64,000 nt of DNA from Parabacteroides faecalis (lineage in GTDB: Bacteria > Bacteroidota > Bacteroidia > Bacteroidales > Tannerellaceae): NCBI RefSeq assembly GCF_022809355.1, contig NZ_JAKZMM010000001.1:62001-126000 (forward strand). The letters are read 5' to 3'. Shown piece after piece: positions 5,493 through 45,697 of this stretch. Within the stretch, counting starts at the first letter, position 1; each line of letters begins with the position of its first letter. The notes under the pieces were generated by a model. That model ran no database searches and was not told where the DNA came from. It saw nothing but the letters and a program-made list of their open reading frames with translations. Both the position numbers and the translations under genes were made by a program.

Positions 5493-6497
5493 ATGAAAAA
5501 GAGTTTGATTTATTTGTTTTCATTGCTGTGTATGTTGACATTGGTGACTTCGTGTAGCGATGATGAAAAGGGTGGAACAGATGATGCATGGAAAGAAATT
5601 TCTAAAGACTATACATCTGATAAACTTTCTATCGGAACTGTTTCAACATCAGGAACGATCTCAGTCAATGCTGCTTCTGCAGATAAAGCAACAATCATTT
5701 TAAATAATGTGGTAGCAGGCGAAAGTTCCGTTTCTGTAGATGCTACATTGACAAAAACGGATGCAGGTTATGCTTTCGAAGGAGAATCGACTGCTACAAC
5801 TTGTAATGTGAAAGTTTCAGGAACAATTGAAAACGGTAAACTGACTGCTGCTATTTCTCGTACATTAACATCTGCTTTGGCTGGTACATTAAATCTGAAT
5901 TATGTACCTTATGTGAATGATATGCAAATAGCTCAGGCACATGCATACTTCGATACGGGAGATGCTCAGATGGATGCTATGTTAAATGGTATGGCTGCTC
6001 CGGTTGTAGGCCAATTAATTGCTAAGGAAGTAGAATCTGTTACAGTGAATTTGGGAGAAGAAGGAACATTTTCTTTCTCTTTTAAAAAGGTAGGTGCTTC
6101 TGAAGAAACTGTTATGCCGCCTGCAAAATTGCAAGAAATGATCAAGTCTTATTTAACTTGGTATGAAAAGGAGAATGTTCTTTATTTAGCTGTGCATAAA
6201 GACGCATTAACCATTTTGAGTGGATTAAATATCTTACCGGAGAATATTGATCTGGAAACAATCTTAGGATTATTGACAGTTGAAGGAGACTATTATACCA
6301 TACCTCTTCAAGTAAAAGAAGAAGATGGTTTGACTACTATTTATTTGAACAAAGATATTTTGGTAAAGGCTTGGGAAGTAGCAAAACCTTTAGTTGGAAA
6401 TATTCAAGATGAAACTATCCAATCTATATTAGCTATGGTTGATCAGGTTATGGCTAAGGCTAAAGAAATAGAATTTGGATTAGTCTTTAAAAAGTAA
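5493..6497 (+). CDS. Lipoprotein of unknown function, paralogue of the one at 8696-9751
   Basis: The start at 5493 gives a proper lipoprotein signal peptide with lipobox LVTSC (Cys21); an in-frame ATG 30 nt upstream would add an implausible leader. The acidic stretch SDDEKGGTDD right after the Cys is Asp-rich, as in many surface-directed Bacteroidota lipoproteins. The body (334 residues) is beta-rich, with Ser/Thr-rich repeats in the first half. Its second half aligns by eye with the lipoprotein at 8696-9751: both have an E/Q-S-V-T segment followed by a K-K-x-G-x-S motif, and both end in a short hydrophobic strand plus KK. It may belong to a Bacteroidales-specific DUF such as DUF4925, but that is from memory and unverified. 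Confidence 0.75.
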   Translation: MKKSLIYLFSLLCMLTLVTSCSDDEKGGTDDAWKEISKDYTSDKLSIGTVSTSGTISVNAASADKATIILNNVVAGESSVSVDATLTKTDAGYAFEGESTATTCNVKVSGTIENGKLTAAISRTLTSALAGTLNLNYVPYVNDMQIAQAHAYFDTGDAQMDAMLNGMAAPVVGQLIAKEVESVTVNLGEEGTFSFSFKKVGASEETVMPPAKLQEMIKSYLTWYEKENVLYLAVHKDALTILSGLNILPENIDLETILGLLTVEGDYYTIPLQVKEEDGLTTIYLNKDILVKAWEVAKPLVGNIQDETIQSILAMVDQVMAKAKEIEFGLVFKK

Positions 6498-36005: not shown

Positions 36006-36278
36006 ATGCCTAAGACAATCACATTTAACGAACTTCGTAAGATTAAAGATAGCTTACCTGATGGTTCAACACATCGTATTGCAGACGAACTGGGTCTTTC
36101 TGTAGAAACAGTACGTAATTACTTTGGTGGACAGAATTTCCAAGATGGAAAAAGCTGTGGTGTTCATATTGAACCAGGACCAGACGGTGGTTTGGTAGTA
36201 CTTGATGATACAACAATTTTTGATCGTGCCATGCAGATTTTGGCAGAAAGCCATGAGGCTGCGGCACCAGAAGCGTAA
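36006..36278 (+). CDS. Small helix-turn-helix protein, conserved Bacteroidales type
   Basis: This 90-residue protein begins MPKTITFNELRKIKDSLPDG and has a predicted DNA-binding helix-turn-helix at about residues 22-38 (HRIADELGLSVETVRNYFGG), similar in pattern to the LacI/DeoR recognition region (ADELGLSVETVRNY). The C-terminal half (EPGPDGGLVVLDDTTIFDRA) is acidic and may form a dimerisation strand and helix. I recall close relatives across Bacteroidales annotated only as DNA-binding or hypothetical. It is a single-gene unit bounded by its own promoter and a strong terminator. Autoregulation through the palindrome at 35921-35935 is possible. Confidence 0.8.
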   Translation: MPKTITFNELRKIKDSLPDGSTHRIADELGLSVETVRNYFGGQNFQDGKSCGVHIEPGPDGGLVVLDDTTIFDRAMQILAESHEAAAPEA

Positions 36279-36304
36279 CTAAACGCTTTCTTCTTATTGG
36301 CACA

Positions 36305-36348
36305 AATCCCAAGGTAATAAACTGTTATAAGAAACTTACCTTGGGATT
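36305..36348 (+). terminator. Strong terminator after the HTH gene
   Basis: AATCCCAAGGTAA (36305-36317) and TTACCTTGGGATT (36336-36348) form a perfect 13-bp stem with an 18-nt loop. Confidence 0.8.
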
Positions 36349-36475
36349 CGTAGTTTTCAAACAGACCGATTGAATGAACCCGTATCTGAGATCAAGTTGC
36401 TATTTATTGGGAAAATAAGCGGAAAAGCAGAGATGGAAGCGTTCAATTATTTATTAGTAATCACTTTTAATAACT

Positions 36476-37594
36476 ATGAGTATGGAAGATAAATTAGTAA
36501 CATTGGCTATTCATACTTTTGAAAAGGCCCAAATGCTCAAGATGATTCTTGAGTCGGAAGGTATAGAGGTGTATATTCATAATGTGAATCAAATACAACC
36601 CGTTATATCGGCAGGTGTGCGAGTGAGAATTAAAGAAAGTGATTTACCTCATGCTTTGCGTATCATTGAAGACAGTAAATGGCTTGAATCACCGGCTGAA
36701 GCAGAAAAGGAAATAACGAATACGGGAAAAAGAATCTTGGTTCCGGTTGATTTCTCGGACTATTCGCTGAAGGCGTGCGAAATAGCCATTCACTATGCAG
36801 CGAAAGCTGATGCTGAAGTTATGATTATGCATGCTTATTTCAGCCCTTATTTCCCGTCAGCTATTCCTTTGGGCGACACGATGGCTTATCAGGCTAACGA
36901 AGAAAGTACCCGGCAGATGTTGGAGAGGGTACAACAGGATATGGGAACAATTTGTACAACCATCGACGAAATGATGAAGGAAGGCAAGCTGCCATCCGTT
37001 AAATATGATTATACGTTACGTGAAGGTCTGCCAGAAGAGGAAATCATCGCTTATGGAAAAGAATATCGTCCGGATCTGATCGTAATGGGAACTCGCGGAA
37101 AGGATCAGAAAGATATTGATCTGATTGGTAGTGTTACGGGAGAAGTGATCGAAATGAATAAGGCTCCGGTATTGGCTATCCCGGAAAATGTTCCTTTCAC
37201 GGATTTGAGTAATGTAAAAAACATCGCCTTTGCCACATCTTTCAGTCAACGGGATTTGGTTGCCTTCGATCGCTTTATGGAAGTAATAAAAGGATACGAT
37301 GTGCATATACATCTGTTTAATATCTCAACCAGTCGGGATGAATGGAACGAAATTCGCTTGACGGGAGTTCATGAGTATTTCAAACGTCAATACAAAGATG
37401 CCAATATTACGCATACCGTTCTTGATGACGGAGATTTACTCTTGGCTATTGAAAAGTTTGTACGCGACAAACAGATCGATTTAATCGCATTGACAACATA
37501 TAAACGGAATATATTGTCCCGTATTTTGAATCCAAGTATAGCGAAACGTATGTTATTCCATACAGATACACCTCTGTTGGTAATGCATGCATAA
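36476..37594 (+). CDS. Universal stress protein with N-terminal DUF2007 domain
   Basis: This 372-residue cytoplasmic protein joins a DUF2007 signal-transducing domain (about residues 5-70, with TFEKAQMLKMILESEGIEVY) to two universal-stress-protein domains (about 85-235 and 245-372). The first Usp domain has RILVPVDFSDYSLKA and the ATP-binding-type loop VMGTRGKDQ, although the G-x9-GS/T tail is altered (LIGSVTGEVI). The second ends NPSIAKRMLFHTDTPLLVMHA. Such proteins bind nucleotides and support survival under stress. The start at 36476 is used; an in-frame ATG at 36482 is also possible. It appears monocistronic, with a terminator at 37604-37625. Confidence 0.88.
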   Translation: MSMEDKLVTLAIHTFEKAQMLKMILESEGIEVYIHNVNQIQPVISAGVRVRIKESDLPHALRIIEDSKWLESPAEAEKEITNTGKRILVPVDFSDYSLKACEIAIHYAAKADAEVMIMHAYFSPYFPSAIPLGDTMAYQANEESTRQMLERVQQDMGTICTTIDEMMKEGKLPSVKYDYTLREGLPEEEIIAYGKEYRPDLIVMGTRGKDQKDIDLIGSVTGEVIEMNKAPVLAIPENVPFTDLSNVKNIAFATSFSQRDLVAFDRFMEVIKGYDVHIHLFNISTSRDEWNEIRLTGVHEYFKRQYKDANITHTVLDDGDLLLAIEKFVRDKQIDLIALTTYKRNILSRILNPSIAKRMLFHTDTPLLVMHA

Positions 37595-37603
37595 AACCGA
37601 TCT

Positions 37604-37625
37604 AAAACTCGGGAGTTTTGTTTTT
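37604..37625 (+). terminator. Terminator after the universal stress gene
   Basis: AAAACTC (37604-37610) pairs with GAGTTTT (37613-37619) around GG, followed by a G and five T. The loop of only two bases means that the inner pair probably opens. Confidence 0.6.
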
Positions 37626-37663
37626 GATTCTCGTATATTTTGAAATCGATTCTCGTATGTTTG
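37626..37663. repeat. Direct repeat of GATTCTCGTAT
   Basis: GATTCTCGTAT occurs at 37626 and again 22 nt later at 37648, each followed by a T-rich tract. The same GATTCTCGT core forms part of the 25-bp inverted repeat at 18108-18165. Confidence 0.6.
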
Positions 37664-37688
37664 GATTTTGAAATATCCTATAAAAAAG

Positions 37689-37729
37689 AAACATCTGTAT
37701 CTGGTTGTTCCGGTACAGATGTTTTTATT
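37689..37729 (+). terminator. Hairpin with T-tail upstream of the LytTR gene
   Basis: AAACATCTGTA (37689-37699) pairs perfectly with TACAGATGTTT (37714-37724), and further T residues follow. It insulates the LytTR/FHA pair from upstream transcription. Confidence 0.7.
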
Positions 37730-37791
37730 GAAAGAAAAGTCAGGACCAAAATAGATTTATCAAGAAAAGACGTTAATTTAAAAATAATTCG

Positions 37792-37799
37792 TACATTTG
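37792..37799 (+). promoter_or_regulatory. -7 element for the LytTR/FHA operon
   Basis: TACATTTG matches TAnnTTTG and lies 31 nt before the LytTR ATG. No clear -33 element is seen. Confidence 0.6.
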
Positions 37800-37830
37800 T
37801 TTTACATAAACCGAAAAAGAGTAAGAAGCA

Positions 37831-38229
37831 ATGGATCGATATTTAATGATAAAGACGAGAGATGAGCTGCTTCGTATTAAAATTGGCCAAATCTTGTATT
37901 TTGAAGCGGATAGAAACTATACGAAATTATTGTTATCAAATGGTATCCAATTTACATTTGCTATCAATATCGGAAAGATAGAAGAACTCTTGGAAAAACA
38001 GGTTTCAGGTAGTAATGATATGCTGGTGAGAGTAGGTAAAAGTCATATTATAAATAAAACACATATTTTACAGATTAATCTACCGAAGCAGAAGTTGTTA
38101 TTATTGACACAAGAAGGAAAACCAAGAGAATTAGTTATTTCTAAAGATCCGCTGAAGCAGCTTAAAGAGGCGCTGGAAAAAGAAGTGGAGAAAGGATTGG
38201 AAGAAACTAAAGGAGATGTATTGTCATGA
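37831..38229 (+). CDS. Stand-alone LytTR DNA-binding protein
   Basis: This 132-residue protein is almost entirely a LytTR domain (about residues 5-105). It has the typical IGQILYFEADRNYTKLLLSNG start, the MLVRVGKSHIINKTHILQI core and a C-terminal VISKDPLKQLKEAL helix. LytTR domains bind direct repeats in promoters and normally sit behind a response-regulator receiver domain; here no receiver is present, so control must come from elsewhere. Its stop overlaps the next gene's ATG (ATGA), an FHA protein, which suggests coupled production and a link to Ser/Thr phosphorylation. Confidence 0.9.
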   Translation: MDRYLMIKTRDELLRIKIGQILYFEADRNYTKLLLSNGIQFTFAINIGKIEELLEKQVSGSNDMLVRVGKSHIINKTHILQINLPKQKLLLLTQEGKPRELVISKDPLKQLKEALEKEVEKGLEETKGDVLS

Positions 38230-38882
38230 CGGTGATTACAATCGGGAAAGCACAAGATAATGATTACATCATTGATCATCCTCAGGTGAGTCGGCATCAT
38301 GCACGACTGGTTTCAGGCGAACAGGATTGCTGGTTCTTGGAAGATCTGGAATCGTCGAACGGAACATTCGTTAACGGGGCACAAATTGCCAGAAAACGAG
38401 TGACTCCAACGGATGATATCCGGCTTGGTAAAGAATATCAACTGGATTTTCTGGCAGTACTGAAGAGTAAGAATGATTATAGTACTGAATTTAAAGCCCT
38501 GAAAAAAGTATATGACGATTATACACGTGAGAAAGTCAGAATACAATCATCCAATCAGTTCAAGACTCGATTGTTTCAGTCGTTGCCATTTGCATTGCCG
38601 GGAATCATTGGTTTAATAATAAGTGTGACGGGCGATAGTAACCAGGGCTGGGTAATCGGGAGTTTATTGCTAACGGTCTTGGCTCCTGTTGGAGGAATTT
38701 ATTTGGGCGCACGTCAGTCCGCTAAAATACCCCAGCAATTACAAGATCTGACCAACCAGTTTAAGATTGATTATGTTTGTCCGAAATGCGGAACCTTTTT
38801 GGGTGATATTCCATGGGAATCCCTTCGGAATAAGAAACATTGTCTGGTTTCTTCCTGCCAGGCAAAATGGGTAGAAGAGTAG
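38226..38882 (+). CDS. FHA-domain membrane protein with C-terminal zinc ribbon
   Basis: This 218-residue protein has an N-terminal FHA domain (about residues 3-78) with the full phosphothreonine-binding signature: GKAQDNDYII, VSRHHARL and SSNGTFVNG. A short helical linker is followed by two transmembrane helices (about 117-136 and 142-162) and a C-terminal four-cysteine zinc ribbon (Cys185, 188, 206, 211). FHA domains bind phosphothreonine on partner proteins. Both ends should face the cytoplasm, and the protein could tether a phosphorylated partner to the membrane. It is translationally coupled to the LytTR gene and lies just upstream of the phosphatase/kinase operon. Confidence 0.9.
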   Translation: MTVITIGKAQDNDYIIDHPQVSRHHARLVSGEQDCWFLEDLESSNGTFVNGAQIARKRVTPTDDIRLGKEYQLDFLAVLKSKNDYSTEFKALKKVYDDYTREKVRIQSSNQFKTRLFQSLPFALPGIIGLIISVTGDSNQGWVIGSLLLTVLAPVGGIYLGARQSAKIPQQLQDLTNQFKIDYVCPKCGTFLGDIPWESLRNKKHCLVSSCQAKWVEE

Positions 38883-38935
38883 TTGGATAAGGAAACTATG
38901 CCTTTCGTACATAAAACCTGAACGTTAGATTATAT

Positions 38936-38979
38936 GGGATAATTATTAATCAGAATAATTATCCCTTTTATTATTTTTG
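38936..38979 (+). terminator. Terminator merging into the next promoter
   Basis: GGGATAATTATT (38936-38947) pairs perfectly with AATAATTATCCC (38954-38965) and is followed by a T-rich tail. The tail also contains TATTTTTG (38972-38979), an exact -7 element for the operon starting at 39023, so the end of one unit and the promoter of the next share the same bases. Confidence 0.7.
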
Positions 38980-39022
38980 CGTTGGGATAAAATAATAAAT
39001 TTAATGAGGAAGGGATAGTATT

Positions 39023-39274
39023 ATGCATGAGAATGATTATACATTCGTTACCATTGACAATGAAGAGGATGCTCCGTTGCTCTCTGATGCCGTGGTAGTG
39101 GATGTAGATGGAAACGATGGCATCCTGGATGCAGTGATGCTTGATGATGTACCGGTAGATGGTACAGACTTTATCACATTATCAGATGATTCTGTGGTAA
39201 TGCCTGATTCAGACGATGTGTCTGATTTTATATCGATTGATGTAGATGGTTCTGATATATCATTTATCTTATGA
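39023..39274 (+). CDS. Extremely acidic 83-residue protein, unknown function
   Basis: This small protein has no Lys or Arg at all and about 21 Asp plus 3 Glu in 83 residues. It carries two DVDGxD motifs (residues 27-32 and 73-78), similar to the calcium-binding DxDGxD loop, and repeated D-F-I-[ST] segments (DFITLSDD at 49-56 and DFISIDVD at 68-75). Thr52 fits the TxxD pattern favoured by many FHA domains. It is the first gene of the FHA/PP2C/kinase operon, and its stop overlaps the FHA gene start (ATGA). The overlap, the promoter at 38972-38979 and the ordered motifs argue for a real gene. Possible roles are a kinase substrate, a calcium-responsive regulator or a scaffold; none is proven. Confidence 0.72.
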   Translation: MHENDYTFVTIDNEEDAPLLSDAVVVDVDGNDGILDAVMLDDVPVDGTDFITLSDDSVVMPDSDDVSDFISIDVDGSDISFIL

Positions 39275-39783
39275 TTTCGATTAAATGCCCACATTGTCAG
39301 GTAGGTTTGAAAGTAGACGAGGGGAAACTTCCCCTCGGTATTACTTCTTTCAAATGTCCTAATTGCAAGAAAGCTATACCCGTATCCTTAGTTACGTCCG
39401 GACAAAGTAATGCTGAAGATGCCGAAACGATACTTGTTCACCCGGTCATTCAGCATGTCGGACGATTAACGGTATTACCCGATGCAAACACGCCGGAACA
39501 ACATTTTCCTTTAGTGGAAGGAGAATATATTATAGGCCGTAAATCTTCTGCATCCGGGGCAAATATCAAGATAGAAACAGCCGATAGATCCATGAGTCGC
39601 GAGCATATCCGGATAGAAGTAAAAAAAGATGAACATGGAGGCTATAAACATTACCTTTCAGATAATAATAGCAAGAATCATACGTTATATAATAGCAATT
39701 ATCTAGAGACTGGCGAAAAAGTAGTGTTGAATGACGATGATGAAATCATAATAGGCCATACGATACTGCGTTTTAACTATTAA
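39271..39783 (+). CDS. Cytoplasmic FHA protein with N-terminal zinc ribbon
   Basis: This 170-residue protein begins with an MJ0042-type zinc ribbon (Cys6, Cys9, Cys29, Cys32), then a linker with the motif AEDAETILV (Thr53), then an FHA domain (about residues 62-170) with YIIGRKS, SMSREHIRI and DNNSKNHT. The order is like GarA/OdhI of actinobacteria, where an ETT motif before the FHA domain is phosphorylated by a Ser/Thr kinase and then bound by the FHA domain itself, switching the protein off. The kinase in this operon has similar E-T-x-L sites. It overlaps the acidic protein gene by 4 nt and precedes the PP2C gene by 12 nt. Confidence 0.9.
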   Translation: MISIKCPHCQVGLKVDEGKLPLGITSFKCPNCKKAIPVSLVTSGQSNAEDAETILVHPVIQHVGRLTVLPDANTPEQHFPLVEGEYIIGRKSSASGANIKIETADRSMSREHIRIEVKKDEHGGYKHYLSDNNSKNHTLYNSNYLETGEKVVLNDDDEIIIGHTILRFNY

Positions 39784-39795
39784 TTCTGGAAGGCT

Positions 39796-40599
39796 ATGAA
39801 TATAACATTGGGAAAACCTTTGGCTGTAAGTGATAAAGGGAGACGTGGTAATAATGAAGATTCAATTTTTCCGTTATCTGAAATTGTTTCTTCTGCTGAT
39901 CGTTTGTATATGGTATGTGACGGAGTGGGAGGAGCTAGTCGGGGAGAGGTGGCTAGTTCAATGGCTTGCGACGTTATAAATTCTTTTTTCTGTACTTTCC
40001 TGAAAGGTGATCCTGATGTTGATTTTGTAAATAAAGCTGTACAGTATGTTGAAACCTGCTTTGATACTTATACAAGCGATTATCCGGAAGCCATTGGCAT
40101 GGCAACGACATTGGCTTTGGCTTATATAATGCCTTCTGCAGTATTAATAGCACATATCGGAGATAGCAGAATCTATCATTTGCGCAAAGGTAAAATACTA
40201 TATCGGACAGAAGATCATTCTTTGGTCAATTCCTGGCTTAAATTAGGTCTAATAACGCAAGAAGAAGCGATCAATCATCCTAAGAAAAATGTAATTCTAC
40301 GGGCTATTCAAGGGAAAAAACGTCCAACAGAAGCTGAAGTCTCCATAATAACAGACGTACAAGCCGGAGACATATTCTTACTTTGTTCGGATGGCGTTGT
40401 GGAAAGTTTTACAGATGAAGAATTAGAATCTCTTTTCTCGACTCGTTGTCCTTTAGAGAATTACAAAGAAATATTAGTGGAAAAATGTTTGCAGAAAAGT
40501 CGAGACAATTTTTCCTTCTATCTATTACCCGTCGAATCTGTAGTGAAAACAGAAAGTTTAAAGCAAAATTTTCTCTCTTTCCTTTATTCTTTTATGTAA
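39796..40599 (+). CDS. PP2C-family protein phosphatase
   Basis: This 267-residue cytoplasmic enzyme is predicted to remove phosphate from Ser/Thr residues. It has the PP2C motifs: VSDKGRRGNNEDS (metal-binding Glu21/Asp22), MVCDGVGGASRGE (Asp42), GMATTLALAY, IAHIGDSRIY, EDHSLV, KNVILRAIQG and FLLCSDGV. No transmembrane segment or extra domain is present. It lies 12 nt after the FHA gene and 46 nt before the kinase gene, the usual pairing of phosphatase with kinase in bacterial Hanks-type systems. Confidence 0.93.
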   Translation: MNITLGKPLAVSDKGRRGNNEDSIFPLSEIVSSADRLYMVCDGVGGASRGEVASSMACDVINSFFCTFLKGDPDVDFVNKAVQYVETCFDTYTSDYPEAIGMATTLALAYIMPSAVLIAHIGDSRIYHLRKGKILYRTEDHSLVNSWLKLGLITQEEAINHPKKNVILRAIQGKKRPTEAEVSIITDVQAGDIFLLCSDGVVESFTDEELESLFSTRCPLENYKEILVEKCLQKSRDNFSFYLLPVESVVKTESLKQNFLSFLYSFM

Positions 40600-40645
40600 A
40601 TGTTTTAATTTTGGCAATTAAAACAAATGTTTTGAATGTTGTTTT

Positions 40646-42517
40646 ATGAATTTGCCAAACGGATATTTACTTCAAAAAGGGAAATATAAGCTCAAGCAAG
40701 TTATAGGTCAAGGCGGCTTTGGGATAACATATAAAGGAATATGGCATACAGAGGTAAAAGGTTCTTTAGGTGCAATGAGAACAGAGGTACCTGTATGTAT
40801 CAAGGAATATTTCTTTAAGGATTATTGTGTCCGTGATGCTTATTCTTTTCGAGTAAAAGTCCATTCAGATACAGGAAAGCTTTTATTTGATAAATTCAAG
40901 GAGAAGCTGATCAAGGAAGCGAAGATTCTCTCGGAAGTACACCATCCATATATTGTAAATGTTCTGGAAGTCTTTGAGGAAAATAATACGGCTTACATTG
41001 CGATGGAGTATATTGCCGGTAATTCTCTGAAAGATAAATTGGCTAAGGAAGGAATGTTGCCTGAGGCTGAAGTACTTCGATACATTCATCAAATTGGAGA
41101 AGCCTTGCAATTTGTGCATCAAAAGAATATACTTCACCTAGATATTAAGCCGAGCAATATTTTAATAGACAAGGATAATAATGCCCGTTTGATTGATTTT
41201 GGGGTAAGTAAACGATACGATGTAGGAGAACAGGAAACCAGTACAACCATGTTGACACTATCGAAGGGATTTGCTTCAATAGAGCAATATGATAATGAGG
41301 GAATCCAGTCTTTTTCTCCTTGCCCGGATATTTATTCTCTTGGTGCTACCATGTATAATTTACTGACAGGTAAAATTCCGACTGAATCAATTTTAAGGGC
41401 CACGCGTCCGTTAGCTAGACCTCGGGAATTGAATCCGGCTATATCAGAGCAAACCGAGCAAGTCATTTTGAAAGCTATGGAAATTATTCCGGCTAACAGA
41501 TATCAGTCTGTTGAAGAAATGATGAATGCATTAGGTGGATCTGATTATAAAAAACTAGATGTATCAACTCCACAGGATCTCTTGGCCAGCGAAGGGGATG
41601 AAGAAACAACTTTGCTATATTCTTCTTCTCCGAAGGATGACCAGGAAGAAACTTTACTGAACGCAACAGATGAAGAGCTAGTTCAGAAAGTAAAAGAAAA
41701 AAAATCATCTCATAGCATGGTTGCTGTGACGACAAGTGTTCTCTTGCTGGTTGCAGGAAGTGCTGCTGGATTATATTATTATGAAGAGAAAAAGAATCCG
41801 CCCAAACAAATCGTGGATCAGTCGCTCATTAAGGGAAATGAAGAAGAAGTCGTGGCAAATGTATCTTTAGTTGATTCTATAAAGAAACAAAATGAAACAT
41901 CTCAAACATCAGTTCCTAAAAAGAATGTTGAGACAACCACAGTAAAAGTAGAGAAGCAAGAACCTGTTCAAAAGCCTGTAAGTACACCTAAGAAGTCAAC
42001 TGGTACCGAACAAGTATCCTCTTCTCCTAAAACAGAAAATGACAAACCAGCTATCGATAAGAAGACAACGGAAGATCAAAATATTACGATATCTCCACCT
42101 TCTAAAGAGCAGGTTCAGTCTTTTTACAATCGGTTGCTTGCATCCGGAAAAGAAAAGATGAATGCAAAAGACTATACTGGTGCGAAGAATGACTTTACTC
42201 TTGCAAAAGATCAGATGATCACAGAAGAAGTTATGCGTTTACTTATTGCTTGTGATGAAAAGATAGAAGAACAGCATATTACAGAAAGAAAAGCTCAGTA
42301 TGAAGAGAAAATGCCATTTGGACGTTATACGATTGTAAGAAAAAAATCAAACAATCGATATGGTGCAATTGACAATGATGGGCAAGAACGTATTCCCTGT
42401 AAATACCTGAGCGTAGGAAAAGCTGATAAAGGTAGAGCTTTTGAACGTGAAGACAATTTGTATGACATATATGCTTCTGATGGTTCAATAATTACTAAAG
42501 GTGCAACTTATTATTGA
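40646..42517 (+). CDS. Membrane Hanks-type Ser/Thr protein kinase with WG-like C-terminal domain
   Basis: The 623-residue protein has an N-terminal kinase domain (about residues 14-297): glycine loop GQGGFG (21-26), Lys53 in CIKEY, catalytic HLDIKPSN (Asp166), DFG (184-186) and CPDIYSLGATMYNLLTG. HLD replaces HRD, common in bacterial kinases of this group. The juxtamembrane part (about 305-350) has two similar motifs, DEETTLL (318-324) and QEETLL. One transmembrane helix (about 358-376) leads to a periplasmic part: a Lys/Thr/Pro-rich linker (about 383-490), a helical segment, and a WG-repeat-like end (YGAIDNDGQERIPCKYLSV). PASTA domains are absent. It probably senses an envelope signal and phosphorylates the FHA partners. 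Confidence 0.93.
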   Translation: MNLPNGYLLQKGKYKLKQVIGQGGFGITYKGIWHTEVKGSLGAMRTEVPVCIKEYFFKDYCVRDAYSFRVKVHSDTGKLLFDKFKEKLIKEAKILSEVHHPYIVNVLEVFEENNTAYIAMEYIAGNSLKDKLAKEGMLPEAEVLRYIHQIGEALQFVHQKNILHLDIKPSNILIDKDNNARLIDFGVSKRYDVGEQETSTTMLTLSKGFASIEQYDNEGIQSFSPCPDIYSLGATMYNLLTGKIPTESILRATRPLARPRELNPAISEQTEQVILKAMEIIPANRYQSVEEMMNALGGSDYKKLDVSTPQDLLASEGDEETTLLYSSSPKDDQEETLLNATDEELVQKVKEKKSSHSMVAVTTSVLLLVAGSAAGLYYYEEKKNPPKQIVDQSLIKGNEEEVVANVSLVDSIKKQNETSQTSVPKKNVETTTVKVEKQEPVQKPVSTPKKSTGTEQVSSSPKTENDKPAIDKKTTEDQNITISPPSKEQVQSFYNRLLASGKEKMNAKDYTGAKNDFTLAKDQMITEEVMRLLIACDEKIEEQHITERKAQYEEKMPFGRYTIVRKKSNNRYGAIDNDGQERIPCKYLSVGKADKGRAFEREDNLYDIYASDGSIITKGATYY

Positions 42518-42535
42518 TAATAGGATTTTAATTAT

Positions 42536-43480
42536 ATGAAATTAATAAGAGTCTTGATAGTATTTATTTTGTTTCCCTTGTCTGCTTTGGCTCAACAGCA
42601 GACAGAATATAATCGAAAGGGAGACGAAGCCTTGAAAAGAAAAGATTATCGGGATGCAAAAATGTGGTTTGAAGAAGGTGTATCCTATTGTGATGCTTAT
42701 AGTATTGACAAACTAACGGAAATATGGTTAATCAATGAGCGAATGAGACCATCAATGCGTAGTTTGATGAATAAGTGTCTGAACTGTTTAAATGTACGGG
42801 GAACAGAACAAGATACAACCGCAATGCATCAGTTAATTCTATATTATGAAAAAGGTATTGGAGCTCCGGCTAATGAAGAATTAGCACGTTATTGGACGGA
42901 GAAACTGGCTGAAGCTAGAAGACCTGTTGAATATATTCCTTATACTGCAGAACAGCTAGAAAAAGACAAACAGCCTATGAGCCTGTTCGTTGGTTATCAT
43001 TATTCAATAGAAGCACCTTATGGTTTAACAATAGGAGGAATGAAAAAACATGTGGGTTGGTATGCCCGGTTTAAGACCAATATGGGATTTGACAAATATA
43101 CCACAAAATGTTCCGATAGAAATGGAGGAGAAATTATAGATTTTTCGTCTGATCAGAGTTATTATTTTACCGGGAATAAGAAAAAGAACAGTTATGCGAT
43201 AACTGCCGGTATAGTAATTAAATGCACAGACTGGCTCTATACGTCTGTGGGTCTAGGCTATGGATCTCGATCTTTATTATATGAATACCGAGTAGTAGAT
43301 TATCAGACAGCAAAAGAAGAAGATGCTGCATGGGCAAAACATTTAGACGCATCGAAAGCTGGTGTTGCTGCCGATTGGGATATGATGCTAAAGTTTGGTA
43401 GAATTTTTATTAGTGCAGGCTGTAGTACAATCAACTTTAAATATGTTGACTTAAATGCTGGCGCGGGAGTTTTCTTTTAA
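42536..43480 (+). CDS. Envelope protein with TPR/Sel1-like and beta-barrel-like parts
   Basis: This 314-residue protein has a signal peptide (LSALAQ, about residues 1-19), a helical first half that begins like a TPR (YNRKGDEALKRKDYRDAKMW) and includes a Sel1-like LILYYEKGIGAPANEELARYW segment, and a C-terminal half of alternating strands (MSLFVGYHYSIEAPYGLTIG, ITAGIVIKCTDWLYTSVGLG) ending in aromatic GAGVFF. The end resembles an outer-membrane barrel. It follows the kinase by 18 nt and precedes the FN3/Kelch lipoprotein by 18 nt. No enzyme motif is seen; it may be an outer-membrane partner or target of the kinase system. Confidence 0.78.
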   Translation: MKLIRVLIVFILFPLSALAQQQTEYNRKGDEALKRKDYRDAKMWFEEGVSYCDAYSIDKLTEIWLINERMRPSMRSLMNKCLNCLNVRGTEQDTTAMHQLILYYEKGIGAPANEELARYWTEKLAEARRPVEYIPYTAEQLEKDKQPMSLFVGYHYSIEAPYGLTIGGMKKHVGWYARFKTNMGFDKYTTKCSDRNGGEIIDFSSDQSYYFTGNKKKNSYAITAGIVIKCTDWLYTSVGLGYGSRSLLYEYRVVDYQTAKEEDAAWAKHLDASKAGVAADWDMMLKFGRIFISAGCSTINFKYVDLNAGAGVFF

Positions 43481-43498
43481 GATAAGAAAGGATGAGAT

Positions 43499-45697
43499 AT
43501 GAATAAATATTTACGCTATATTTTATTACTCATAGGCACGAGCAGTCTTATCGTTACAAGCTGTGTTGAAGATCCAGAAATGTCAACAGACATCCGAAAT
43601 GCTTCTGCTCCTGAAGTTATTTTGCTAACGGGAGTTGAAGAAGGATATGACATACAAAAAACTGCGACAACAATAACTATAGAAGGAGAAGTTTTAAGTG
43701 CAAACGGTGCTCCTGTTGAGAGTTATGGCGTTTGTTGGGGAACAGAATCCAATCCGACAATAGAAGCTGGCGATACAGTAATTTCTGGTAGAGGCCTCGG
43801 GAAGTTTTCAGCCACTGCCATTTCTTTAGAGAGTGATCAAGAATATTACATTCGTCCGTATGCTACGAATATAAAGGGTACTAGTTATGGAGATGAGTTA
43901 TTAGTCTCTACAACAAATGGACTTGGAGTGGTCCGAACATTACTCCCAATCGAGAAAGACATAAAGGCTACCAGCATCATCTGTGGTGGAAAGATTGTAG
44001 ATGCAGGAGAAGGTGATATTGAAGAAAGAGGAGTTCTCTTAACTACCCAAAAAGAGGATGAGAATGCTCATGAATATCCTTGTACGATGGAAACGGATTC
44101 TTTCTATTTGGAAATTACAGATCTGAAACCTCTTACAACATATTATATCCGGGCATACGTTAAAAACACATTCGGTCGTTTTGTAGGAGATTGGCAAACA
44201 GTAAAGACAACTGATGGGAAGCCAGTATTTTCATCCTTTAGAATGTTGTCTAAGGATTATACTTCAGCAGACTTTACAGCTATCCTGAAATCGCAAGGAG
44301 ATTCAGATGTTAAAGCTTGTGGGTTCTGTTACAGCGATGTGAATGAGATTCCATCATTAGATGATAATAAAGTAGCTTGTGAGTTACAGAAAGATTCAGT
44401 AATCACAGGAAAGCTGGAAGGTTTAAAACAGCAGACACGGTATTATGTTCGTGCATTTGCAGAAAATTCTTTTGGAATTTCTTATAGTGCAGGCGATCCT
44501 ATTGTATTAATTGTGAAAAGTCAAGCGCCAACAGTAACTACTACTGATATTAAAGAGACTGATTTATCTGCAGGTTCGGTTTCTGTGAGCGGTATTATCC
44601 AGGATAAAGGAGAAAGTGATATTATTGATGCAGGATTCTGTTGGTCTACTAAAACAGAACCTACAATTGCAGATAATAAACTATCAGTTTATCAAGGAGA
44701 CAGTTTGATCTCTGGAGTAATAACGGGACTGAAGGGCGGAAATACCTATTATGTTCGTGCTTATGCTACGAATGCAGCCGTCACTTCCTATGGAGAAACA
44801 AGAGAGGTCAAAACACCCAATATCATTGAAACATTAGCAAAATACGCTGGAGAAAATGTAACAGAAGCATCTTCTTGTGTTAGTAACGGAGTTGGTTATG
44901 TTTTTGGTGGAGATTTGGGTGGAACCCGTTCGAAGGAATTATATGCATATAATTGGGAAACGGATACATGGCAAAATAAAGCCTCTGCAAAGGTTGGTGT
45001 GAAAGGCTCAGCCTTTTTCCCTCTAAATAGTTTTTCTATTTTAAGTTTGGGAGGAAAGGATGATCAGGATGCGGTGTCTAATGCTTTTTATTATTATTCG
45101 GTTCAACGTAATGAATGGAAAATATTAGGACAGAATGACTCTCCAATTTATCTTTATGATGCTGCCGGAATTTCCATAGATAATGATGCCTACTATTTTG
45201 GAGGAAGTGCCAATGATACGATTAATTCTAAGATTTTGAAGTTTAGTGGTTGGACAGAATCTTGGACCGAAGTAGGTACATTCCCCGAAAAACAATTGGG
45301 AAGCGTCGTTGAAGAAATCAATGAAACAGTGTATGTTGGTTTAGGAATGACAGGAACCGGACTTTCTGGAGTATCTTATAGTAAACGCTTATGGTCTTCT
45401 GCATCATCTGATATGTTGTCATGGAAAGAAAAAGCTTCTTGTCCGACGGAAGCTCAAGGTATTATTTGTGGAACAAATGTTGGAGGCAAATTATATGCTT
45501 TGGATACAAATTTAAGTATGTGGGTCTATGATCCAACAAATGATGCGTGGACAAAGAAGAATACATCGTTTGTTTCAACATTTTCTACGGATAATCTGAA
45601 CAGTCTGTTTATGTTCTCTATGAACTCCTATATTTATATAGGTATAACAACAGGTTCTAAAACATTCATTAAATATGATCCGCAATGGGATAATTGA
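43499..45697 (+). CDS. Lipoprotein with four FN3-like repeats and a Kelch propeller
   Basis: The 732-residue protein has a lipoprotein signal with lipobox IVTSC (Cys22), followed by VEDPEMSTD. Four FN3-like repeats fill about residues 40-440; each has a YGVCWGT/ACGFCYS/DAGFCWS strand followed by a L-x-x-x-T-x-Y-Y-[IV]-R-[AP]-[YF] strand. A Kelch-type beta-propeller follows (about 445-732), with repeats such as VGYVFGGDLGG, DAYYFGGSANDT and GGKLYALDTNLSMWVYDP. This is a surface or periplasmic binding protein by architecture; its ligand is unknown. It ends the likely signalling part of the operon. The cysE start lies 5 nt beyond its stop. Confidence 0.85.
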   Translation: MNKYLRYILLLIGTSSLIVTSCVEDPEMSTDIRNASAPEVILLTGVEEGYDIQKTATTITIEGEVLSANGAPVESYGVCWGTESNPTIEAGDTVISGRGLGKFSATAISLESDQEYYIRPYATNIKGTSYGDELLVSTTNGLGVVRTLLPIEKDIKATSIICGGKIVDAGEGDIEERGVLLTTQKEDENAHEYPCTMETDSFYLEITDLKPLTTYYIRAYVKNTFGRFVGDWQTVKTTDGKPVFSSFRMLSKDYTSADFTAILKSQGDSDVKACGFCYSDVNEIPSLDDNKVACELQKDSVITGKLEGLKQQTRYYVRAFAENSFGISYSAGDPIVLIVKSQAPTVTTTDIKETDLSAGSVSVSGIIQDKGESDIIDAGFCWSTKTEPTIADNKLSVYQGDSLISGVITGLKGGNTYYVRAYATNAAVTSYGETREVKTPNIIETLAKYAGENVTEASSCVSNGVGYVFGGDLGGTRSKELYAYNWETDTWQNKASAKVGVKGSAFFPLNSFSILSLGGKDDQDAVSNAFYYYSVQRNEWKILGQNDSPIYLYDAAGISIDNDAYYFGGSANDTINSKILKFSGWTESWTEVGTFPEKQLGSVVEEINETVYVGLGMTGTGLSGVSYSKRLWSSASSDMLSWKEKASCPTEAQGIICGTNVGGKLYALDTNLSMWVYDPTNDAWTKKNTSFVSTFSTDNLNSLFMFSMNSYIYIGITTGSKTFIKYDPQWDN

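Follow-up and report, generated by a model that had tools for sequence, protein, structure and literature searches.

A conserved Ser/Thr phospho-signalling island of the Tannerellaceae with a stand-alone LytTR regulator and a predicted LytTR operator

How might a phosphothreonine signal reach a promoter? The substrates of a bacterial Ser/Thr kinase are usually many and scattered, dedicated transcription factors are few, and we know of little on how receiver-less LytTR regulators are gated. Both matters meet in a Parabacteroides window (the whole stretch of DNA analysed, 64,000 nucleotides), where the initial annotation had described, at 37831-43480, a seven-gene phospho-signalling island and had proposed that it forms a complete circuit with a DNA-binding output. 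All seven open reading frames are present, with their domains assigned by Pfam, and both ATGA overlaps are real (LytTR/FHA1 at 38226, acidic gene/FHA2 at 39271). The island does not end with the seventh gene, however, but continues downstream with an fn3/kelch gene, and its sequence divides it not into one but into three predicted transcription units, each with a predicted promoter: LytTR-FHA1 (P1), acidic-FHA2-PP2C (P2) and kinase-barrel-kelch (P3). The features are as follows.

37792-37799, forward strand: predicted -7 box of P1, TACATTTG, for LytTR-FHA1 (TAnnTTTG conserved in relatives)
37831-38229, forward strand: LytTR, stand-alone, predicted DNA-binding protein of 132 aa (Pfam PF04397, E 8e-11)
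38226-38882, forward strand: FHA1, with an N-terminal FHA domain, two hydrophobic segments and a C-terminal zinc ribbon (Pfam PF00498, 3e-19)
38903-38932, forward strand: predicted LytTR operator, TTCGTACA (38904-38911) and TTAGATTA (38925-38932), 21 bp apart (from conservation in relatives)
38936-38965, forward strand: inverted repeat, GGGATAATTATT...AATAATTATCCC, perfect, then TTTT (from the sequence)
38972-38979, forward strand: predicted -7 box of P2, TATTTTTG, for acidic-FHA2-PP2C (Bacteroidetes -7 box in relatives)
39023-39274, forward strand: acidic protein of 83 aa, without Pfam family, motifs YTFVT and DFITL..DDT conserved
39271-39783, forward strand: FHA2, with a zinc ribbon, a variable linker containing the conserved Thr53, and an FHA domain (Pfam, 3e-12)
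39796-40599, forward strand: PP2C Ser/Thr phosphatase (Pfam 4e-15), Stp1-like by NCBIfam
40606-40613, forward strand: predicted -7 box of P3, TAATTTTG, for kinase-OMP-kelch (TAnnTTTG just 3' of the PP2C stop in relatives)
40646-42517, forward strand: membrane Hanks-type Ser/Thr kinase (Pfam 2e-41), with a hydrophobic segment C-terminal to the kinase domain
41597-41617 and 41642-41662, within the kinase gene: motifs DEETTLL and QEETLLN, between kinase domain and hydrophobic segment
42536-43480, forward strand: secreted protein with signal peptide, a helical TPR/Sel1-like part and a beta domain, probably an outer-membrane barrel
43499-45697, forward strand: fn3 and kelch secreted protein (Pfam), a likely lipoprotein whose gene closes the conserved block

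PF04397 is the sole Pfam family above cut-off in the LytTR protein; the absence of a receiver domain sets it apart from the LytTR response regulators of two-component systems. Its AlphaFold model (pLDDT 91) has LytTR domains as top PDB matches (3d6w, ComE and AgrA). The two hydrophobic segments of FHA1 and its C-terminal CxxC...C..C ribbon were read directly off the sequence, and the model of the putative barrel protein (pLDDT 80) consists of helices followed by about eight long strands. The kinase is the sole Pkinase (Hanks) match in the genome; of the genome's three FHA matches two lie within the island, and its LytTR matches number nine. The catalytic loop of the kinase reads HLD instead of HRD, conserved in orthologues, as in a non-RD kinase. 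The phosphatase ends in a conserved hydrophobic tail of the FLYSF type, with the kinase promoter directly after it (40560-40613 of the window); the tail could serve to anchor the protein in the membrane, or its DNA could be retained for the sake of the promoter. An anti-phage role was considered and dropped, the PADLOC matches being to generic kinase models only.

Synteny was counted over 79 named loci recruited by the LytTR protein, leaving out, for each gene, loci on contigs too short to reach it. FHA1 adjoins LytTR in 78/78 loci within the Tannerellaceae, followed by FHA2 (71/74), PP2C (70/73), the kinase (60/66), the barrel protein (58/65) and the kelch protein (54/60). The small acidic gene was found by tblastn in 52/75 loci, and its apparent loss from the termite Tannerella clade proved to be an artefact of that search, an equivalent ORF being present in all 12 loci that were examined among the remainder. 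LytTR and kinase orthologues also occur together: both are found in 104 of 125 genomes of the family, neither in 16 and one alone in 5 (Fisher 2e-15, from hand counts and inflated by fragmented, incomplete genomes). Since it is conserved across the Tannerellaceae, the arrangement is not due to chance; the functional link would have been weak, according to the initial annotation, were the LytTR/FHA1 pair and the kinase operon found apart in most relatives, and the counts place them together.

The division into three units rests on the promoter sequences. For P1, 75/77 relatives have TAnnTTTG 29-65 nt 5' of LytTR (3.8 in shuffles), and the P2 -7 box is kept in 70/73 (6.2 in shuffles), just beyond the inverted repeat, likely the terminator of the LytTR-FHA1 unit. 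P3 is taken as a separate promoter because the box after PP2C is conserved and because relocated kinase operons bring their own -7 box with them; breaks in synteny coincide with the borders of the predicted units. The two upstream promoters differ in their -33 TTTG, found at P2 in 8/70 and at P1 in 39/75. A P2 that mostly lacks a -33 box fits an activator-dependent promoter.

Taking these observations together with the operator discussed below, we lean towards reading the island as a Ser/Thr phospho-circuit with a dedicated LytTR factor, in which FHA1 would read phosphothreonine and LytTR would activate the P2 genes. The ATGA coupling of a receiver-less LytTR gene to an FHA gene had been called unusual; pairing with a membrane protein is not so in itself, being that of the LRS systems HdrRM and BrsRM: a soluble LytTR-only regulator followed by a membrane-protein gene, direct repeats about 21 bp apart 5' of the activated promoter, and activating signals of which little is known (PMC6193735). 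The island shares with these the receiver-less regulator (132 aa), the adjacent downstream transmembrane partner (FHA1 in every one of the 78 loci) and the direct repeats about 21 bp apart. It differs in that its repeats precede the neighbouring unit, at P2, and not the pair's own promoter P1, in that its membrane partner is an FHA/zinc-ribbon protein (FHA is not mentioned in the text of PMC6193735), and in that the pair is embedded in a kinase/phosphatase module. In front of P1, direct repeats show no excess at any period among 75 relatives, and it is on the promoter that membership of the LRS fails. In an LRS, moreover, the membrane protein acts as inhibitor of the regulator, and the pair activates its own expression. 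Two copies of GATTCTCGTAT, 22 bp apart (37626-37658), follow the universal-stress-protein gene with LytTR-like spacing; as a LytTR site they were dropped, because even among the three closest relatives they are not conserved.

This likeness leaves room for an unlikely, though serious, alternative: that LytTR-FHA1 is an ordinary LRS-like pair whose FHA domain reads another ligand or acts independently of phosphate, so that the link to the kinase is transcriptional only. Conservation of FHA1 peaks in its C-terminal zinc ribbon and not in the FHA domain, as such a pair would allow, and the genome's second stand-alone LytTR gene shares an ATGA overlap with the gene of a membrane protein that has one segment and matches phosphodiester-glycosidase weakly, with no FHA or kinase gene nearby (L155:8151-9361, contig C30). 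It appears to be a further LRS-like pair without FHA, so that pairing of LytTR with a membrane protein does not require phosphothreonine gating. Against this stand the conserved SRxH and NGT positions of FHA1, the single kinase match that the genome offers to serve its FHA domains, and the recurrence of an FHA-type LytTR partner beside a kinase in paralogous islands. The diverged islands in question lie in other Tannerellaceae genomes (L151, L152 and L154) and combine LytTR-FHA1 with a kinase, an FHA2-type protein and PP2C; their LytTR proteins are 37-41% identical. A locus from a different family of the same order, L163, has LytTR-FHA1-FHA2-PP2C.

If the phospho-circuit has a DNA-binding output, its most probable target is a two-part site, TTYGTACA-N13-TTtGATTA, between the LytTR-FHA1 and acidic-FHA2-PP2C units. 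The first half-site, T[TC][CGT]GTACA, is present in 73/73 relatives (1.3 in shuffles); the second begins 21 bp further on, and repeat scores are raised at periods 21 and 22 only. Identity among relatives is 0.83 and 0.70 in the half-sites, 0.45 in the spacer and 0.33 in the DNA beyond. In 55 relatives the first half-site stands 67-70 bp from the P2 -7 box; another 13 have it at 79-80 bp, one turn of the helix further off, and the Tannerella clade places its half-sites at -100/-79/-58 or -68/-47 from the box. Exact direct repeats are found chiefly in that clade; in Parabacteroides the second half-site (TTTGATTA) resembles the first only in part, and in the most diverged case (G171) a single half-site is left, at an odd distance. 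Published LytTR operators consist of direct repeats of 9 bp separated by 10-13 bp (PMC11347149; compare PMC6193735), and judged by its sequence the P2 site has this usual shape.

The site is, in addition, tied to the acidic-FHA2-PP2C unit. It could have been a part of the FHA1 3' end, an explanation that is excluded by its absence 3' of FHA1 where unrelated genes follow (0/4: L246, L247, L249 and L160). In one genome, G167, in which acidic-FHA2-PP2C-kinase lies on another contig, the operator precedes the relocated unit at the usual 69 bp. A tandem repeat array of the TTGACGTCAAGTTGCCG type was also seen 5' of the relocated acidic-FHA2 unit there (L276, about 5690-5910, G167:C55). Relocated kinase operons (L156, L158 and L161) have the promoter with its -7 box, and no operator was found at them; we therefore narrow the claim to the acidic-FHA2-PP2C unit, and the kinase itself may lie outside LytTR control. 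A pattern scan of the genome finds one perfect site, at the island, and in 8/8 genomes of another genus there is likewise one perfect site each, on the island contig and at the island position, with one-mismatch matches in those eight at control level; a wider regulon is thus not indicated in the nine genomes scanned, which hold no site above background beyond the island's.

The shape, the position, the co-segregation with the unit and a site in a paralogous island lead us to infer that LytTR occupies the P2 operator, and the DNA-binding output that had been proposed for the island gains support from this conserved, LytTR-shaped, predicted element. The paralogous site consists of TTTC[AG]TCCATTA repeats, 21 bp apart and 5' of that island's kinase; in L151-L153 no repeat lies clearly in front of a kinase-unit promoter, and at the matching promoters of L163 repeats of 21 bp are absent. 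We consider it improbable that the P2 element instead serves another regulator, or functions in RNA or as a terminator, with LytTR acting elsewhere. The degenerate second half-site of Parabacteroides and the hairpin just 3' of the element would agree with this, whereas helical phasing to the -7 box and steps of 21 bp suit a DNA-bound dimer, the element is unique in each genome and beside LytTR, it is gone where FHA1 is followed by no acidic gene and retained when the unit moves, and related repeats occur in the one paralogous island. Very improbable is a third explanation, in which nothing but shared inheritance keeps the genes together and LytTR regulates a broad, unrelated gene set, as its rank as the best conserved of the block's proteins might suggest for a global regulator: the nine genomes yield no further site above background, the islands recur in diverged form, and synteny breaks at the borders of transcription units.

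Candidate phospho-sites of the circuit are conserved as well. Thr53 of FHA2 (codon 39427-39429) is found in 70/71 orthologues, in a linker otherwise variable in both length and sequence, and is preceded by D or E in 66 of the 71. Motifs of the form [DE][DE]T-hydrophobic occur in the juxtamembrane segment of the kinase in 45/60 orthologues, at a mean of 1.62 per orthologue as against 0.025 when shuffled. The acidic protein has its own conserved stretches, YTFVT and DFITL/DDT-hydrophobic.

The mechanism we propose builds on what can be read from the sequence, that is, the gene set, the LytTR-FHA1 pairing, the operator-like site with its geometry and uniqueness, and the conserved threonines. The membrane kinase would probably take its information from its extracytoplasmic part and from the two co-encoded secreted proteins. 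Its targets would be threonines of acidic [DE][DE]T-hydrophobic motifs, both those of its juxtamembrane segment and Thr53 of FHA2, with the acidic protein probably a further target. PP2C would strip these phosphates, and FHA1 and FHA2 would act as their readers. FHA1, anchored in the membrane, would form an LRS-like pair with LytTR in proposed physical contact, phosphothreonine bound to FHA1 altering its grip on LytTR; the domain content of FHA1 is what suggests such gating. Free LytTR would then bind the two half-sites 21 bp apart 5' of P2 and activate acidic-FHA2-PP2C, the positive sign being our reading of the promoter, and read-through might perhaps reach the kinase and close a feedback loop. 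In its most specific form, in which a membrane FHA protein holds or releases a receiver-less LytTR depending on threonines that a single cognate kinase phosphorylates, and one operator per genome sets the levels of the circuit's own phosphatase and phospho-readers, the proposal is plausible and tentative.

Parts of this circuit have counterparts elsewhere. The closest for kinase and reader are the actinobacterial PknG/PknB with GarA or OdhI, in which the FHA protein docks on kinase autophosphosites and the threonine of an ETT motif is the switch (PMC8546545): here, too, a Hanks kinase goes with an FHA protein that has a threonine in acidic context N-terminal to its FHA domain, and the kinase has a segment with candidate docking threonines. 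The island differs by the zinc ribbon of FHA2 and by having a second FHA protein, in the membrane, and a transcription factor; FHA2 has no PDB sequence match to a solved FHA protein, and the OdhI model is absent from its matches. In Streptococcus pneumoniae the Ser/Thr kinase StkP acts on a LytTR transcription factor, ComE (PMC6010298), but ComE has a receiver domain, on which it is phosphorylated directly, with no FHA adaptor. The kinase-kinase-phosphatase module KKP (PMC11341870) likewise encodes Ser/Thr kinase, PP2C and FHA together, but is prophage-borne, and its two kinases are an FHA fusion and a kinase with a cold-shock domain, in contrast to the island's one kinase with neither. As to the PpkA-PppA-Fha pathway of type VI secretion, the ten genes of 36006-45697 match no T6SS structural family, and the TagH model scores far below its cut-off.

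Beyond the family, the core appears without the LytTR arm. In other orders of the class, three genomes (L259-L263) have FHA1-acidic-FHA2-PP2C-kinase, whole or in part, with no LytTR, and one genome (L258) has it together with a LytTR gene of more canonical type at a distance of one gene. Since LytTR is mostly missing beside the core in other orders of the Bacteroidia, the comparison indicates a core module older or wider than the LytTR arm, and LytTR would be an added output arm and not the original end of the circuit; the circuit as envisaged in the initial annotation is supported in part. In several related islands a caspase-family protease is an extra component, as are kinases that carry formylglycine-enzyme-like or MORN domains. 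Peptidase_C14 genes lie in or beside related FHA/kinase/PP2C islands at L152:13241-13993, L163:6588-7307 and L262:5447-6220, and a caspase-family gene was assigned by resemblance at L261:15667-16458; the Parabacteroides island has none. A larger acidic protein replaces the small one in L154:7336-8262, L152:9062-10036 and L151:11942-12784, with DxDxDG-like repeats, a conserved FSEAFADARAQVGPGG-FEWHG segment and no Pfam family.

No paper in the open-access literature searched links LytTR with the FHA domain, whether in Bacteroides or at large, and the novelty of the LytTR-FHA connection is provisional. One region unites kinase, phosphatase, readers, candidate threonines, regulator and predicted operator, the kinase match and the operator each occurring once per genome, and a route from phosphothreonine to promoter thereby becomes testable in a culturable family of gut commensals. 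If true, this would be a little-known wiring of phosphothreonine signals to gene expression, in an arrangement distinct from two-component systems, the LRS and known kinase-to-regulator pathways, and a phosphothreonine-gated LytTR would be at work across the Tannerellaceae and, in diverged form, elsewhere in the Bacteroidales.
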